The position numbers were made by a program, and so were the translations under genes. Positions 26,109 through 31,538 of a stretch of DNA of 64,000 nucleotides are shown here, one piece after another; position 1 is the stretch's first letter; each line of letters starts with the position of its first letter. A model generated the notes under the pieces. The model worked only from the letters and a program-made list of their open reading frames with translations. It was not told where the DNA came from and did no database searches. The DNA is from Defluviitalea saccharophila (GTDB taxonomy: Bacteria > Bacillota > Clostridia > Lachnospirales > Defluviitaleaceae): NCBI RefSeq assembly GCF_038396635.1, contig NZ_CP121687.1, positions 496,001 to 560,000 of the forward strand, read 5' to 3'.

Positions 26109-26864
26109 TTATAGTAAAGACAAATACCAATTAATGATTTGTTCTCCCCAATATAGGGAGACAAAAGTTCCTAAGGCTAAAAAGGGACCAAAGGGAATGG
26201 CTGATTTTCTGTCCTTAATCTTTGTCATCAAAAGAACAGCCCCTATAATGCCGCCCACTAGAATTCCCAAAAAAAGACTTAATACAACACCTTTCAATCC
26301 TAAGAACAAGCCAATAACTCCCATAAGTTTCATATCTCCGGCACCCATACCTCCCCGGGATATGAGTATAATAACCAATATAATCAAGGCTCCAGCTAAA
26401 AAGCCTAATATTCCATCTTTAATAATTAAAAAAGAACGATTTATAATCCAATTCATCATTAAATAAATACTTCCAAGTATTATTCCAAAAATAATAAGTT
26501 TATTCGGTATGATTCCTGTTTTAAAATCAATCATAGCAATTACTAATAATAAGGATGAAAATAAAGCATAAAAAATAAAAGAATAACCTAAACCAAACTT
26601 AAGAAATAAAAATAAATATATAATACCATTTGTTAATTCAATAATAGGATACTGTATACTAATTTTTTCACCACAATATCTGCACTTGCCTTTTAAAAAT
26701 ATAAAACTCAATAAGGGAATTAAGTCTAAAACTCCAAGTGTATGATGACAATGAAAACAATGAGATGCTGGAAAAGCTATGGATTGTTTATGAGGTATTC
26801 GGAAAACACATACATTAAGAAAACTGCCGATTATTGTTCCAAAAATAATAATCAAAAAAGTCAT
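26109..26864 (-). CDS. pilD: prepilin peptidase / N-methyltransferase
   Basis: Bifunctional TadA/PilD-family aspartyl protease that cleaves prepilin leaders and methylates the new N-terminus. The cytoplasmic methylase loop has two CxxC-type pairs (HCFHCHH and CRYCG). Catalytic aspartates lie in AMIDFKTGIIPN and GGMGAGDMKLM. About eight membrane helices, 251 aa. AAAGGG before the ATG. A perfect hairpin lies between pilA and this gene. Confidence 0.96.
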   Translation of the reverse strand: MTFLIIIFGTIIGSFLNVCVFRIPHKQSIAFPASHCFHCHHTLGVLDLIPLLSFIFLKGKCRYCGEKISIQYPIIELTNGIIYLFLFLKFGLGYSFIFYALFSSLLLVIAMIDFKTGIIPNKLIIFGIILGSIYLMMNWIINRSFLIIKDGILGFLAGALIILVIILISRGGMGAGDMKLMGVIGLFLGLKGVVLSLFLGILVGGIIGAVLLMTKIKDRKSAIPFGPFLALGTFVSLYWGEQIINWYLSLL

Positions 26865-26892: not shown

Positions 26893-26924
26893 CTTTATCA
26901 GATACCAAATGGTATCTGATAAAG
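26893..26924 (-). other. perfect 14-bp hairpin after pilA
   Basis: CTTTATCAGATACC, loop of four, GGTATCTGATAAAG. It starts 26 bases past the pilA stop. On the minus strand the 3' arm is followed by ATCTATAAAC, without a U-run, so it is a poor terminator. Better explained as a 3' mRNA protector or weak attenuator that raises pilA over the downstream genes. Confidence 0.75.
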
Positions 26925-26949: not shown

Positions 26950-27357
26950 CTATTTAAAACCATCTAAAGTAACAAACTTCTTTTCGTCATCTGATAAACC
27001 GTTAACGGCATCTTTAACATCTTTATTTGGACTATCGGCTTCTATTACAACCTTACCATCAGTATTACTATAGACAAATTTAATTCCAGCTGTTTGTGGA
27101 CTTGGTTCTTCTTCTAAATATCCCGCTGTTTTCAATGCAGCAAGATCAGCTGGATATTCTCCTTTTTCTGCCATATATAAAGCGATTTGTCTGTTAACTT
27201 CTCTTATTGATGCAACGTCTGCTTTAATTTTTGATTTGGTTGTGGCCTTAGTAAAGCTTGGTGCAATAATTGCCCCAATGATTGCAATAATTGCAATAAC
27301 GATGATTAATTCAATCATTGTAAAACCTTTTTCTTCCTTAAATAATTTTCTTAACAT
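26950..27357 (-). CDS. pilA: major Type IV pilin
   Basis: 135-residue prepilin: leader MLRKLFKEEKG, cleavage before FTMIELIIVIAIIAIIGAII, Glu5 present, then a short globular domain ending VTLDGFK. No cysteine pair for a disulphide D-loop; the AEKGEYPADLAALKTAGYLE segment resembles GspG-type major pseudopilins and Clostridium PilA1. Its own 5' leader (119 bases) and 3' hairpin suggest strong separate expression. GGGGAGG lies seven bases before the ATG. Confidence 0.93.
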   Translation of the reverse strand: MLRKLFKEEKGFTMIELIIVIAIIAIIGAIIAPSFTKATTKSKIKADVASIREVNRQIALYMAEKGEYPADLAALKTAGYLEEEPSPQTAGIKFVYSNTDGKVVIEADSPNKDVKDAVNGLSDDEKKFVTLDGFK

Positions 27358-27423
27358 TTTACATCCTCCCCTACGTTTCTAATTTATTTTAATATATATT
27401 GAAAATGAGATTCTGCTTTAATT

Positions 27424-27434
27424 TCACCTCCTTT
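27424..27434 (-). promoter_or_regulatory. orphan consensus Shine-Dalgarno in the pilA leader
   Basis: Minus strand AAAGGAGGTGA, a full anti-16S match about 67 bases upstream of the pilA ATG, with no ATG/GTG/TTG at suitable distance (AAATTAAAGC follows). pilA has its own GGGGAGG. It resembles the STAB-SD elements that protect 5' mRNA ends by binding 30S subunits, as described for Bacillus cry genes. A preceding ATATATATTT/AAATATATAT palindrome could be the processing site. Confidence 0.6.
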
Positions 27435-27476
27435 AAGTGATATTTATATATATTTAAAAAATATATATCCTGTGAT

Positions 27477-28685
27477 TTAGATTTGAGTCGCCAGACTGAA
27501 CATAGGCATTATGATAGCCAACATGATAAAGCCAACTACTCCACCCATAATTAGAGTGATAAAAGGTGAAATCATAGTAGTCATCTGGTCGATGGCTACT
27601 TCCACTTCGTCTTCATAAAAGGCTGCAGTTTTATCCATAATGGCATCTAAGGAACCGGACTCTTCACCTATACGAACCATGCTGATAAGCATCACTGGAA
27701 ACAAATTTGATTGCTGCATGGCACTAGCAAGGCTTCCTCCCTGTTTTATTTCATCTATGCAATGATCAATCACTTCCATGGCAATAGTATTTTGAACGAC
27801 TTTTTTTACGACTTCCATGGTTTGTATAATAGGAATCCCTGCTTTCATTAAACTGCAAAGGGTTCTGGAAAAATTAGCATGAATAATTTTTTTATTGAGA
27901 TTGCCGAATATAGGTATTTTTAAAGCATAACTATCTAATAAATGTTTTACCTCATCATACCTTTTAATGTACTTAAATCCAGCGATAAGCAAAATAATAA
28001 CTCCCAGAATTATATACCATTTAGCCTGCATAAAATCACTTACAGCCATAAGTGCTAAAGTAACTCCAGGGAGTTCTGCATCAGCATCTTGAAACATTCC
28101 TACAAATCTCGGAACCACAAAAACAATCATGCCTGTAACAACCACAACCATTAAAACCATTACGATGATAGGATAAGTCATTGCTTTTTTGATCTGCCTT
28201 TGCATTTTCATTTCTTTTTCAAAATGAATTGCCATCTGATTCATAGAAGAATCCAGATTACCGCTGACTTCCCCTGCTTCAACCATATTAATAAGGATGA
28301 GGGGGAATTCTTTATGCTCCCTCAGTGCTTCTGAAAGGCTTCTTCCTTTTTGTACTTCTTCATGAACATTTTGAATGATTTCCCTAAAAGACGGATTGCT
28401 GGTTTGCTTTCTTAAGATATCCAGGGTGCCTCCTATGGAAATCCCCGATTCAAGCATCACGGCAAATTGTCTGCAAAAAATAGCAATGTCCTGAGTTTTG
28501 ACTTTCGGCTTAAAAAGAGGCAGTTGATTTAAATCTGTATTCCAAGTATTTTTCGCTTTGACATCCAGCGGAAATAAATTTCTGGATAATAGATGATTGA
28601 TCATCTCCTCTTTGGATTCAAATTCTACTTCTCCCTTAACCACTGCACCATTTATATCCTTAGCTTTATATGCATAAACAGGCAC
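27477..28685 (-). CDS. pilC: Type IV pilus platform protein PilC
   Basis: Inner-membrane platform of the GspF/PilC family, 402 aa: two repeated T2SSF domains (about 70-190 and 272-394; FCRQFAVMLESGISIGGTLD and FSRTLCSLMKAGIPIIQTME) and three membrane helices near 165-190, 220-242 and 372-395. GTG start with GGGGGG upstream. Couples PilB/PilT rotation to pilin insertion. Followed by the pilA leader. Confidence 0.96.
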   Translation of the reverse strand: MPVYAYKAKDINGAVVKGEVEFESKEEMINHLLSRNLFPLDVKAKNTWNTDLNQLPLFKPKVKTQDIAIFCRQFAVMLESGISIGGTLDILRKQTSNPSFREIIQNVHEEVQKGRSLSEALREHKEFPLILINMVEAGEVSGNLDSSMNQMAIHFEKEMKMQRQIKKAMTYPIIVMVLMVVVVTGMIVFVVPRFVGMFQDADAELPGVTLALMAVSDFMQAKWYIILGVIILLIAGFKYIKRYDEVKHLLDSYALKIPIFGNLNKKIIHANFSRTLCSLMKAGIPIIQTMEVVKKVVQNTIAMEVIDHCIDEIKQGGSLASAMQQSNLFPVMLISMVRIGEESGSLDAIMDKTAAFYEDEVEVAIDQMTTMISPFITLIMGGVVGFIMLAIIMPMFSLATQI

Positions 28686-28698
28686 ATCAACCCCCCCT

Positions 28699-29760
28699 TT
28701 ACGGCATTCCTAAAAGCCTTTTGATGCTTTCTTGATCCTGAGCATAACTTATGGCATCTTGAAGTTCAATCATTCCTCGTTTATAAAGACTGGCAAGACT
28801 CATATCCATAGTATGCATTCCATGTTTACTTCCTGTCTGAATCATGGAATGAATTTGGTGACTTTTGCCCTCACGAATAAGATTGGATATGGCAGAAGTC
28901 GTTACCATAATTTCCGTAGCCGCCGTTCTTCCATTTCCATCCTTTAACTTTAATAGCTGCTGAGAAATAACGCCTTTTAACACATTGGAGAGCTGAATTC
29001 TAATTTGCTCCTGTTGGTGAGGCGGAAACACGTCGATGATTCTATCCACGGTTTGCGCTGCACCTATGGTATGAAGGGTGGACAAAACAAAATGTCCCGT
29101 TTCAGCAGCAGTAATGGCAATGGATATGGTTTCTAAGTCTCGCATTTCTCCAACCAGTATAACGTCAGGATCTTCACGAAGTGCCGACCTAAGGGCAGCT
29201 CCGTAGGATTTAGTATCCGGTCCGATTTCTCTTTGATTTACAATACTTTTATTATGTTTGTGAAGATATTCTATGGGGTCTTCTAAGGTAAGGATATGGC
29301 AAGCCCTTTCACGATTAATCTGATCGATCATTGCCGCAAGAGTAGTGGATTTCCCGCTTCCTGTAGGACCAGTTACAAGTACCAGTCCCCTTGTGTTTCT
29401 TGCCAATTCGCTAATAACTGTAGGCATTCTCAACTCTTCCAGAGTGGGAATATTAATCGCCACAGCTCTTAAGGCAGCAGCACAAGTACCCCTTTGTCTG
29501 TAAACATTAACCCTAAAGCGTCCAATGGATGGCACTCCATAGGAAAAGTCCGCTTCTCCGTCTCTTAAGAAAGCTTCTTTTTTGTTTTCATCCTTTAATA
29601 ACTGCATTACTATATCCTCAGTATCTTTTGGGGTTAATTTGGGCATGTCCACTGATTTTAATTTGCCATTAATTCTAAAAACCGGCGGTATTCCTACGGT
29701 GATATGTATATCTGACGCCTTGGCTTGTGATCCGAAAGCTAATAATTTATCAATATCCAT
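28699..29760 (-). CDS. pilT: pilus retraction ATPase PilT
   Basis: Hexameric retraction motor, 353 aa. Walker A GPTGSGKSTTLAAMIDQ (about residues 129-145), Asp box DPIEYLHKHNKSIVNQREIG, Walker B region ALREDPDVILVGEMRD and His box TAAETGHFVLSTLHT. It lacks the C-terminal tetracysteine zinc motif of PilB, which separates it from the extension ATPase. Its presence implies retractile pili (twitching or DNA uptake). Confidence 0.96.
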   Translation of the reverse strand: MDIDKLLAFGSQAKASDIHITVGIPPVFRINGKLKSVDMPKLTPKDTEDIVMQLLKDENKKEAFLRDGEADFSYGVPSIGRFRVNVYRQRGTCAAALRAVAINIPTLEELRMPTVISELARNTRGLVLVTGPTGSGKSTTLAAMIDQINRERACHILTLEDPIEYLHKHNKSIVNQREIGPDTKSYGAALRSALREDPDVILVGEMRDLETISIAITAAETGHFVLSTLHTIGAAQTVDRIIDVFPPHQQEQIRIQLSNVLKGVISQQLLKLKDGNGRTAATEIMVTTSAISNLIREGKSHQIHSMIQTGSKHGMHTMDMSLASLYKRGMIELQDAISYAQDQESIKRLLGMP

Positions 29761-29769
29761 GTTAACCTC

Positions 29770-31464
29770 CTAATCTTGACCATAAGCCACTCTAAGTAAT
29801 TCTTCAACAGTTGTTTTTCCATCCAATACATTTCTTCTAGTGTTTGTCCAAAGTGTGTTCATGCCATTTTGGATTGCAGCTTCTTTGATTTCATCTGCAT
29901 TGGCACCTTTAGCAATCAGTTCTCTAAGTCCTGCATTTAATGTCATAACTTCATGAACTGCCATTCTTCCTTTATATCCGGTATTGTTGCATACTTGACA
30001 GCCTTTACCTTTATAAACTACAGTTTCTATTGGAACTTTTAAAATTTCGGCTTCTTCTTCTGTCAACGAAACGGGCGTACTGCAATTGCTGCAGATTTTT
30101 CTAACAAGTCTTTGGGCGATAATGCCTTGAACAGCAGTTGCCACCATAAAAGGTTCTATTCCCATATCAATCATACGTGTCACAGAACTAGGTGCATCGT
30201 TTGTATGAAGCGTACTTAATACAAGGTGCCCCGTGATCGCTGCTCTAACTGCAATGCTGCAGGTTTCACTGTCGCGCATTTCTCCAATCATAACAATATC
30301 CGGGTCTTGACGCAGTATAGCTCTAAGCGCATTTGCAAAGGTAAGTCCGGCTTTTACGTTTACATGAACTTGATTGATACCATCTATCATATTTTCTACA
30401 GGGTCTTCTACTGTAATTATATTCACATTTGGTCGATTTAATTCTCTCAAGGCTGCTGCTAATGTAGTTGATTTACCGCTCCCTGTAGGACCTGTAACCA
30501 ATATTATTCCATGGGGATTTTTTAAAAGACTAGTGAACTTATCCAAATCCTCAGGATAAAATCCTAACTGTTCTTTTCTAAGCTGCATTCCGGTTCTATA
30601 AATTAAACGAATAACTACTTTCTCTCCATAAATCGTCGGAAGAACATTCACCCTGAGGTCCAATTGATTATTATCTAGCGTTACTCCGATTCTTCCATCT
30701 TGAGGAATTCTTTTTTCTGCAATATTCATTTTTCCTAAAATTTTTATTCTGGTAACCATGGCATTTAAGGTCGTTAAATCGGTCTTTAGAAGTTCTTGCA
30801 GCTGTCCGTCTATTCTTAGCCGTACTCGAACGTAGGTTTCAAAAGGTTCTATATGTATGTCACTGGCATTTCTCCTGATGGCCTGTTCAATAATATTATT
30901 AACCAGTTGAACTGCCGGAGAATTTAAAACCTCTTCTTCACTTTGAGAGTCATTGTCATAAGTAGCCTGTTTTTTCATTTTTTCTTGCATTTGTTTTTGG
31001 AACTCTGCTGCTATGCTGGCTACTTTGCTCGCTCCATACATTCTGTCGATGGCGCTTTTAACATCCGAGTGACTTGCTATAACGGGTATAACTTCCATTT
31101 TTGTTGTAATTTGGACATCATCGAGCGCAAAAACATTTAAAGGGTCCGACATAGCTACTACCAAATGGTTATTTTCAATTTTAATCGGAATCAGCAAATG
31201 TCTTTTGGCTAAATTTTCGTTGATCATCCCAGCAGCTTTCGCATCGATTACATATTTGGACAAATCAACCTGTGGGATTCCTAACTGAAATTCTAGTACT
31301 TCGATGATATTTTGTTCGGTTACCCAACCTTTTTCAACAAGGATTTCTCCTAGTTTTTTACCTGTTTTTACTTGTTCTTGCAGGGCTTCTTTAAGCTGAT
31401 CCTTGGTAATCATATCTGCCTGAACAAGTAAATCTCCCAATTTTTTCTTTTCGGCCTTTTTCAT
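29770..31464 (-). CDS. pilB: pilus extension ATPase PilB with MshEN N-terminus
   Basis: GspE/PilB ATPase, 564 aa. N-terminal MshEN domain with two LGxxLv...Q units (KLGDLLVQADMITKDQLKEA and KLGEILVEKGWVTEQNIIEV), a fold that binds c-di-GMP in MshE-type ATPases. Then Walker A GPTGSGKSTTLAAAL, Walker B ILRQDPDIVMIGEMRD, and zinc tetracysteine CSNC...CQVC. ATG 31464 (GGGGAT upstream) is chosen over GTG 31476. First gene of the pilus operon, with its own SigA promoter. Confidence 0.96.
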   Translation of the reverse strand: MKKAEKKKLGDLLVQADMITKDQLKEALQEQVKTGKKLGEILVEKGWVTEQNIIEVLEFQLGIPQVDLSKYVIDAKAAGMINENLAKRHLLIPIKIENNHLVVAMSDPLNVFALDDVQITTKMEVIPVIASHSDVKSAIDRMYGASKVASIAAEFQKQMQEKMKKQATYDNDSQSEEEVLNSPAVQLVNNIIEQAIRRNASDIHIEPFETYVRVRLRIDGQLQELLKTDLTTLNAMVTRIKILGKMNIAEKRIPQDGRIGVTLDNNQLDLRVNVLPTIYGEKVVIRLIYRTGMQLRKEQLGFYPEDLDKFTSLLKNPHGIILVTGPTGSGKSTTLAAALRELNRPNVNIITVEDPVENMIDGINQVHVNVKAGLTFANALRAILRQDPDIVMIGEMRDSETCSIAVRAAITGHLVLSTLHTNDAPSSVTRMIDMGIEPFMVATAVQGIIAQRLVRKICSNCSTPVSLTEEEAEILKVPIETVVYKGKGCQVCNNTGYKGRMAVHEVMTLNAGLRELIAKGANADEIKEAAIQNGMNTLWTNTRRNVLDGKTTVEELLRVAYGQD

Positions 31465-31509
31465 TTTTATCCCCACTTTGAAGTCTCAGTATATTCATTC
31501 AACATTCTC

Positions 31510-31538
31510 ATTATAGCAATATAACAAATTTATGTAAA
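31510..31538 (-). promoter_or_regulatory. SigA promoter of the pilus operon
   Basis: Minus strand TTTACA, 17-base spacer ending TTGC, TATAAT, with an extended -10 TG. It lies about 46 bases before the pilB ATG, after the sigK terminator, so the pilus genes have an independent strong vegetative promoter. Confidence 0.8.

Follow-up and report, generated by a model that had tools for sequence, protein, structure and literature searches.

A conserved hairpin and an orphan Shine-Dalgarno sequence in the pilA leader of Defluviitalea saccharophila as a possible mRNA-protecting element

How could a single transcript yield far more pilin than motor protein? This question is raised by a type IV pilus locus of Defluviitalea saccharophila, which lies in a stretch of 64,000 nucleotides of contig NZ_CP121687.1 that was analysed at its full length and is called the window here. 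On the minus strand of the window, Pfam matches and open reading frames (ORFs) gave the gene order pilB, pilT, pilC, pilA, pilD, minor pilins and pilM (Table 1). The product of pilA carries the prepilin N-methylation motif and is similar to geopilin and to PilA chains from solved pili. The gaps between pilB, pilT, pilC and pilA measure 9, 13 and 119 nt, and a sequence search of the minus strand revealed no terminator-like site between these genes. From pilC to pilA this strand reads TAA-ATCACAGG-ATATATATTTTTTAAATATATAT-AAATATCACTTAAAGGAGGTGAAATT...GGGGAGGATGTAAAATG. An Rfam search of the window gave no family match, which implies that no known riboswitch, such as a c-di-GMP riboswitch, is present there.

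Table 1. Position of the features of the pilus locus in the window
Feature	Position	Strand	Basis
Promoter-like site before pilB, putative main promoter, TTTACA-17-TATAAT, extended -10	31510..31538	minus	11/12 consensus
pilB	29770..31476	minus	Pfam T2SSE, MshEN
pilT	28699..29760	minus	Pfam T2SSE
pilC	27477..28685	minus	Pfam T2SSF
pilC-pilA leader, 119 nt	27358..27476	minus	ORF boundaries
GG at 5' base of AU hairpin, candidate RNase Y cut region	27469..27470	minus	G near stem in 5 family leaders; RNase Y preference
AU hairpin, 10 bp, loop UUU	27446..27468	minus	Folding; same place in five leaders
Orphan full-length Shine-Dalgarno, AAAGGAGGTGA	27424..27434	minus	16S complementarity
Own Shine-Dalgarno of pilA, GGGGAGG	27365..27371	minus	-11.4 kcal/mol with 16S tail
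pilA, putative major type IV pilin, 135 aa	26950..27357	minus	N_methyl PF07963; ATG at 27357
Hairpin 3' of pilA without T-run, candidate protector of the 3' end	26893..26924	minus	Folding and covariation
pilD, prepilin peptidase	26109..26864	minus	Pfam A24

An initial annotation of the window had pointed to AAAGGAGGTGA 67 bases upstream of pilA without a start codon, to a separate ribosome site of pilA and to an AT palindrome directly upstream; all three were found in place (Table 1). The leader site matches the 16S 3' end, GGATCACCTCCTTTCT in this genome, with perfect complementarity over 11 contiguous pairs. ATG, GTG and TTG are all absent at a usable distance from this Shine-Dalgarno (SD) sequence in the window. 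The nearest start candidate is an ATT 4 bases past GGAGG, which begins a 12-codon frame out of phase with pilA, and no in-frame start codon at SD distance opens a frame into pilA, as a dual start would need. In the genome of 3.01 Mb, AAAGGAGGTGA is present in 14 copies. Eight of these are the complement of 16S 3' ends, their coordinates coinciding with 16S genes, one is antisense within an apparent gene and four are real starts with an ATG a few bases downstream. The copy in the pilA leader is the only orphan, being the sole sense-strand leader copy in the genome that lacks a start codon. SD sequences with one mismatch numbered 5 in the window versus 4.5 expected, which is not above chance; the exact 11-mer and its position are informative and the one-mismatch count is not. 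The orphan SD of the window pairs with the 16S tail at -17.9 kcal/mol, the strong complementarity to the 16S 3' end that characterizes a STAB-SD. Over five family leaders the orphan SDs reached -16.1 to -18.4 kcal/mol and the SDs of pilA itself -8.6 to -12.1 kcal/mol. By prediction, an upstream UCACUU pairs with half of the orphan SD, and this counts against the explanation that is preferred below.

The palindrome folds into an AU hairpin of 10 A-U pairs (predicted -4.8 kcal/mol, z -2.5). Hairpins of 10-12 bp with loops of 3-6 nt, sited 11-14 nt before the SD, were found in all five family leaders tested. Dinucleotide shuffling gave p = 0.007-0.054 per leader and a Fisher combined p of 2.5e-4 over four genera, values that have to be read with the caution that AU hairpins are weak and that AT repeats pair readily. 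A G was seen within 0-3 nt 5' of the stem in each of the five leaders; as this was judged by eye, the position of an RNase Y cut is only a guess.

The genome belongs within the Defluviitalea group, where Candidatus Epulonipiscium MAGs and Defluviitalea phaphyphila are the nearest named records. For the family, eight genomes were sampled, two of which (the window genome, G000, and G002) are of the same species. A search for ATATATAT-N2-12-ATATAT-N7-20-GGNGGTG covered seven of them (all except G002) and G013, which is of another family. The pattern occurs at a single place per genome in G000, G003, G004, G005, G006 and G007, representing four Defluviitaleaceae genera, and every match is located at the pilC-pilA junction. 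The reversed control pattern gave zero matches in the genomes searched. Two matches were counted in G006 because two contig ends overlap at one locus. The leader of G002, which was read directly, is identical to that of the window. When G005 and G006 are compared (PilC 82% identical), hairpin and SD align and the sequence upstream aligns poorly. In the neighbouring family, G013 has retained an SD-like GGGGGTGA and is without the hairpin pattern. The leader of G001, which is of the same genus as the window genome, contains neither the 5' hairpin nor the SD, and the 3' hairpin after pilA is absent as well. The alignment of related leaders, which had been put forward in the initial annotation as a check, is thus favourable in that hairpin and SD are conserved as a pair in six genomes of four genera, and unfavourable as regards G001. 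Few independent lineages stand behind this conservation.

The window (27930-26950) and G003 (L006) are near identical over the last third of pilC, the leader and the beginning of pilA. None of the 39 fourfold sites in the final 300 nt of pilC is different, and further on pilA diverges by 24%. The near identity of the two leaders was rejected as a sign of constraint, since the 3' end of pilC is equally invariant. A recombinational exchange around pilA between the two lineages has probably taken place, judging from this pattern.

A stable 3' stem-loop of the non-terminator type, as in SRPS operons, is predicted after pilA (-22 kcal/mol, z -7.1). Downstream of pilA, the window, G003, G004, G006 and G007 all have a strong hairpin. 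In these five sequences 10 of 10 aligned pairs are kept, three of them by double changes, and the covariation score was matched in 1 of 500 shuffles. The view that this hairpin is a terminator was rejected, as no T-run follows it on the minus strand.

What is observed are the elements in the sequence, how they are conserved, the energies of pairing and the RNase genes; from these we infer a cut, 30S binding and stabilization. The long pilB-pilT-pilC-pilA transcript would be cut at the AU hairpin or immediately upstream of it, with RNase Y as the most likely enzyme, and the hairpin would then be the start of the new 5' end. A 30S subunit would settle on the orphan SD about 14 nt further along, and hairpin and 30S subunit would jointly stop RNase J from trimming in the 5'-to-3' direction; 3' exonucleases would be stopped by the strong 3' hairpin. 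With both ends protected, it is proposed, the pilA segment would outlive the assembly genes, and the major pilin would be in excess. RNase Y and RNase J genes are both encoded in the genome. That the pilA leader is such an mRNA-protecting element, in which RNase Y processing and a STAB-SD-like 30S block raise the amount of pilin, is on balance the account we favour, and hairpin and orphan SD probably keep the pilin mRNA longer than the rest of the operon.

The closest precedent is pilA2 of Clostridium perfringens (Obana et al.; PMC7395162). There RNase Y cuts the pilD-pilB2-pilC2-pilA2 mRNA in the 5' UTR of pilA2, and the monocistronic pilA2 mRNA is longer-lived. As in the window, the pilin gene comes directly after pilC, RNase Y is encoded, and the 5' UTR has a weak 5'-proximal stem-loop, predicted at -4.60 kcal/mol there and at -4.8 kcal/mol here, where it recurs in five leaders. 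Unlike the present leader, that of pilA2 is not described as having an orphan SD in the part of that report that was available, and cleavage, inferred for pilA, was shown for pilA2 (PMC7395162). RNase Y of Staphylococcus aureus cuts preferentially after G (PMC4608709), at a position set by downstream structure (PMC11321564). In Bacillus thuringiensis, the STAB-SD of the cry3A transcript (Agaisse and Lereclus, 1996; reviewed in PMC4113751) stops RNase J1 via 30S binding and resembles the pilA site in being a strong untranslated SD in an organism with RNase J. It lies about 129 nt upstream of its gene versus 67 nt for the pilA site, which differs in following a hairpin and in being located within an operon. 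Two 5' protectors are known in Bacilli, namely structured 5' ends and strong SDs that lack a start codon (PMC3997798), and by its sequence the pilA leader carries candidates for both in series. In the SRPS operons of Clostridium cellulolyticum (PMC4423207) an intergenic stem-loop without a U-run likewise follows the abundant gene of an operon for a multi-protein complex. Protection there is attributed mainly to 3' stem-loops (PMC4423207); the pilA leader adds a 5' SD element.

The initial annotation had read the site as a possible stabilizer at a point where pilA mRNA would be processed. The one-place conservation, the maintained strength of the SD, a leader without promoter and the C. perfringens precedent speak for this reading; G001, G004 and G007 speak against it. 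The leader element can be regarded as a variant of known mechanisms that is real and conserved, and processing with protection appears the most likely reading of its sequence. If this is true, a pilus-operon STAB-SD at the very spot where RNase Y acts in C. perfringens would unite two mechanisms that were described separately, and would explain the excess of pilin over motor protein asked about above. The relatives amount to a natural experiment, in that some possess the element, some lack it and some have a start codon in addition.

The AT-rich palindrome could instead be, or overlap, a pilA promoter or a regulator site, with the SD at the transcription start. TATAAT-like words are indeed present in its right arm, the leader of G013 has an extended -10 word (8.9 bits, which is below the 95% shuffle level), and for C. 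perfringens pilA2 another group than that of the RNase Y study has claimed a promoter from RNA-seq gaps and gusA fusions (PMC6958937). But a -35/-10 pair above the shuffle level was found neither in the window leader nor in any of the five family leaders, and a fixed operator would not have a loop that varies between 3 and 6 in length. A promoter within the leader was for lack of a site above shuffles rejected, and this alternative as a whole is considered rather unlikely. A strong promoter-like site, the putative main promoter, precedes pilB (13.5 bits, the 95% level of shuffles being 10.5). Alternatively, translation of a long PilA isoform or of a short leader peptide might begin upstream of pilA at the SD, a start still live in G004 and G007 and a relic in the window. 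In G004 (D. phaphyphila) and G007 an ATG (L017/L018) stands at normal distance after the SD in frame with pilA, and the open frame adds 24 and 19 codons to PilA; the pilA start of these loci is a possible dual-start prepilin. PilA of Geobacter sulfurreducens, a precedent, reportedly has two isoforms. The initial annotation had named an ORF that truly uses the SD as evidence against its stabilizer reading, and from their sequences such an ORF probably exists in G004 and G007; in the window, G003, G005 and G006 the site is an orphan, ATG, GTG and TTG being out of range in these three relatives also. In these four genomes the SD strength nevertheless stays at -16 to -18, and this argues against a relic, since a relic would decay. 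The N-terminal extensions of G004 and G007 are, moreover, dissimilar in sequence. The SD has been preserved in all five leaders, the start codon is present in only some; for this reason a translated extension is treated as an alternative and not as the main function, and we consider it unlikely.

If the orphan SD served as a standby site for ribosomes, it would increase translation of pilA and leave mRNA decay unaffected; the very strong 16S pairing some 53 nt upstream of pilA's own SD would agree with this. That own SD, though weaker than the orphan one, is already good and is predicted not to be deeply folded, and a standby site leaves the 5' and 3' hairpins unexplained, which makes this reading very unlikely. 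The flagellin leader of B. subtilis contains a two-site CsrA operator. The GGA motifs at both SDs of the window could form another, as CsrA is encoded in the genome. In G006 and G013, which both encode CsrA, the orphan site is devoid of GGA and SD pairing is kept via G-U pairs; the GGA is thus not conserved, and a CsrA operator is highly improbable.

To our knowledge, most known STAB-SDs are from toxin genes of a single group of species. Among 90 clostridial pilC-pilA leaders, 13 contained an upstream SD-like site at a shuffle p of 0.01 or less, where about 1 was expected. Five of the 13 belong to the Defluviitaleaceae and the others include G657, G705, G664, G748 and G575. Matches such as those in L146, L150 and L181 were rejected as SDs, being GGTGRT words inside hairpins. 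Since some of the weaker sites in the class are hairpin arms, a claim for the class is tentative. It is conceivable, though doubtful, that orphan SDs in pilin leaders are a recurrent device of Clostridia, in which a parked 30S subunit, with or without a hairpin, would fix the 5' end left by RNase Y and set the dosage of pilin, and which would have been converted in G004 and G007 into another start that yields a longer prepilin.

A second pilC-pilA locus of the window genome (L015, G000:C1:2934783) is without an orphan SD and has its own hairpin 3' of the pilin gene. In other clostridial families, orphan SD-like sites without an AU hairpin were observed about 3-18 nt past the pilC stop in L199, L162, L184 and L173. 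Six leaders of one family (f76; L148, L149, L166, L167, L176 and L180) share a common element, with arms like CTTATTCC...GGAATAAG around AGGGGGGGAT, which is perhaps a structured RNA.
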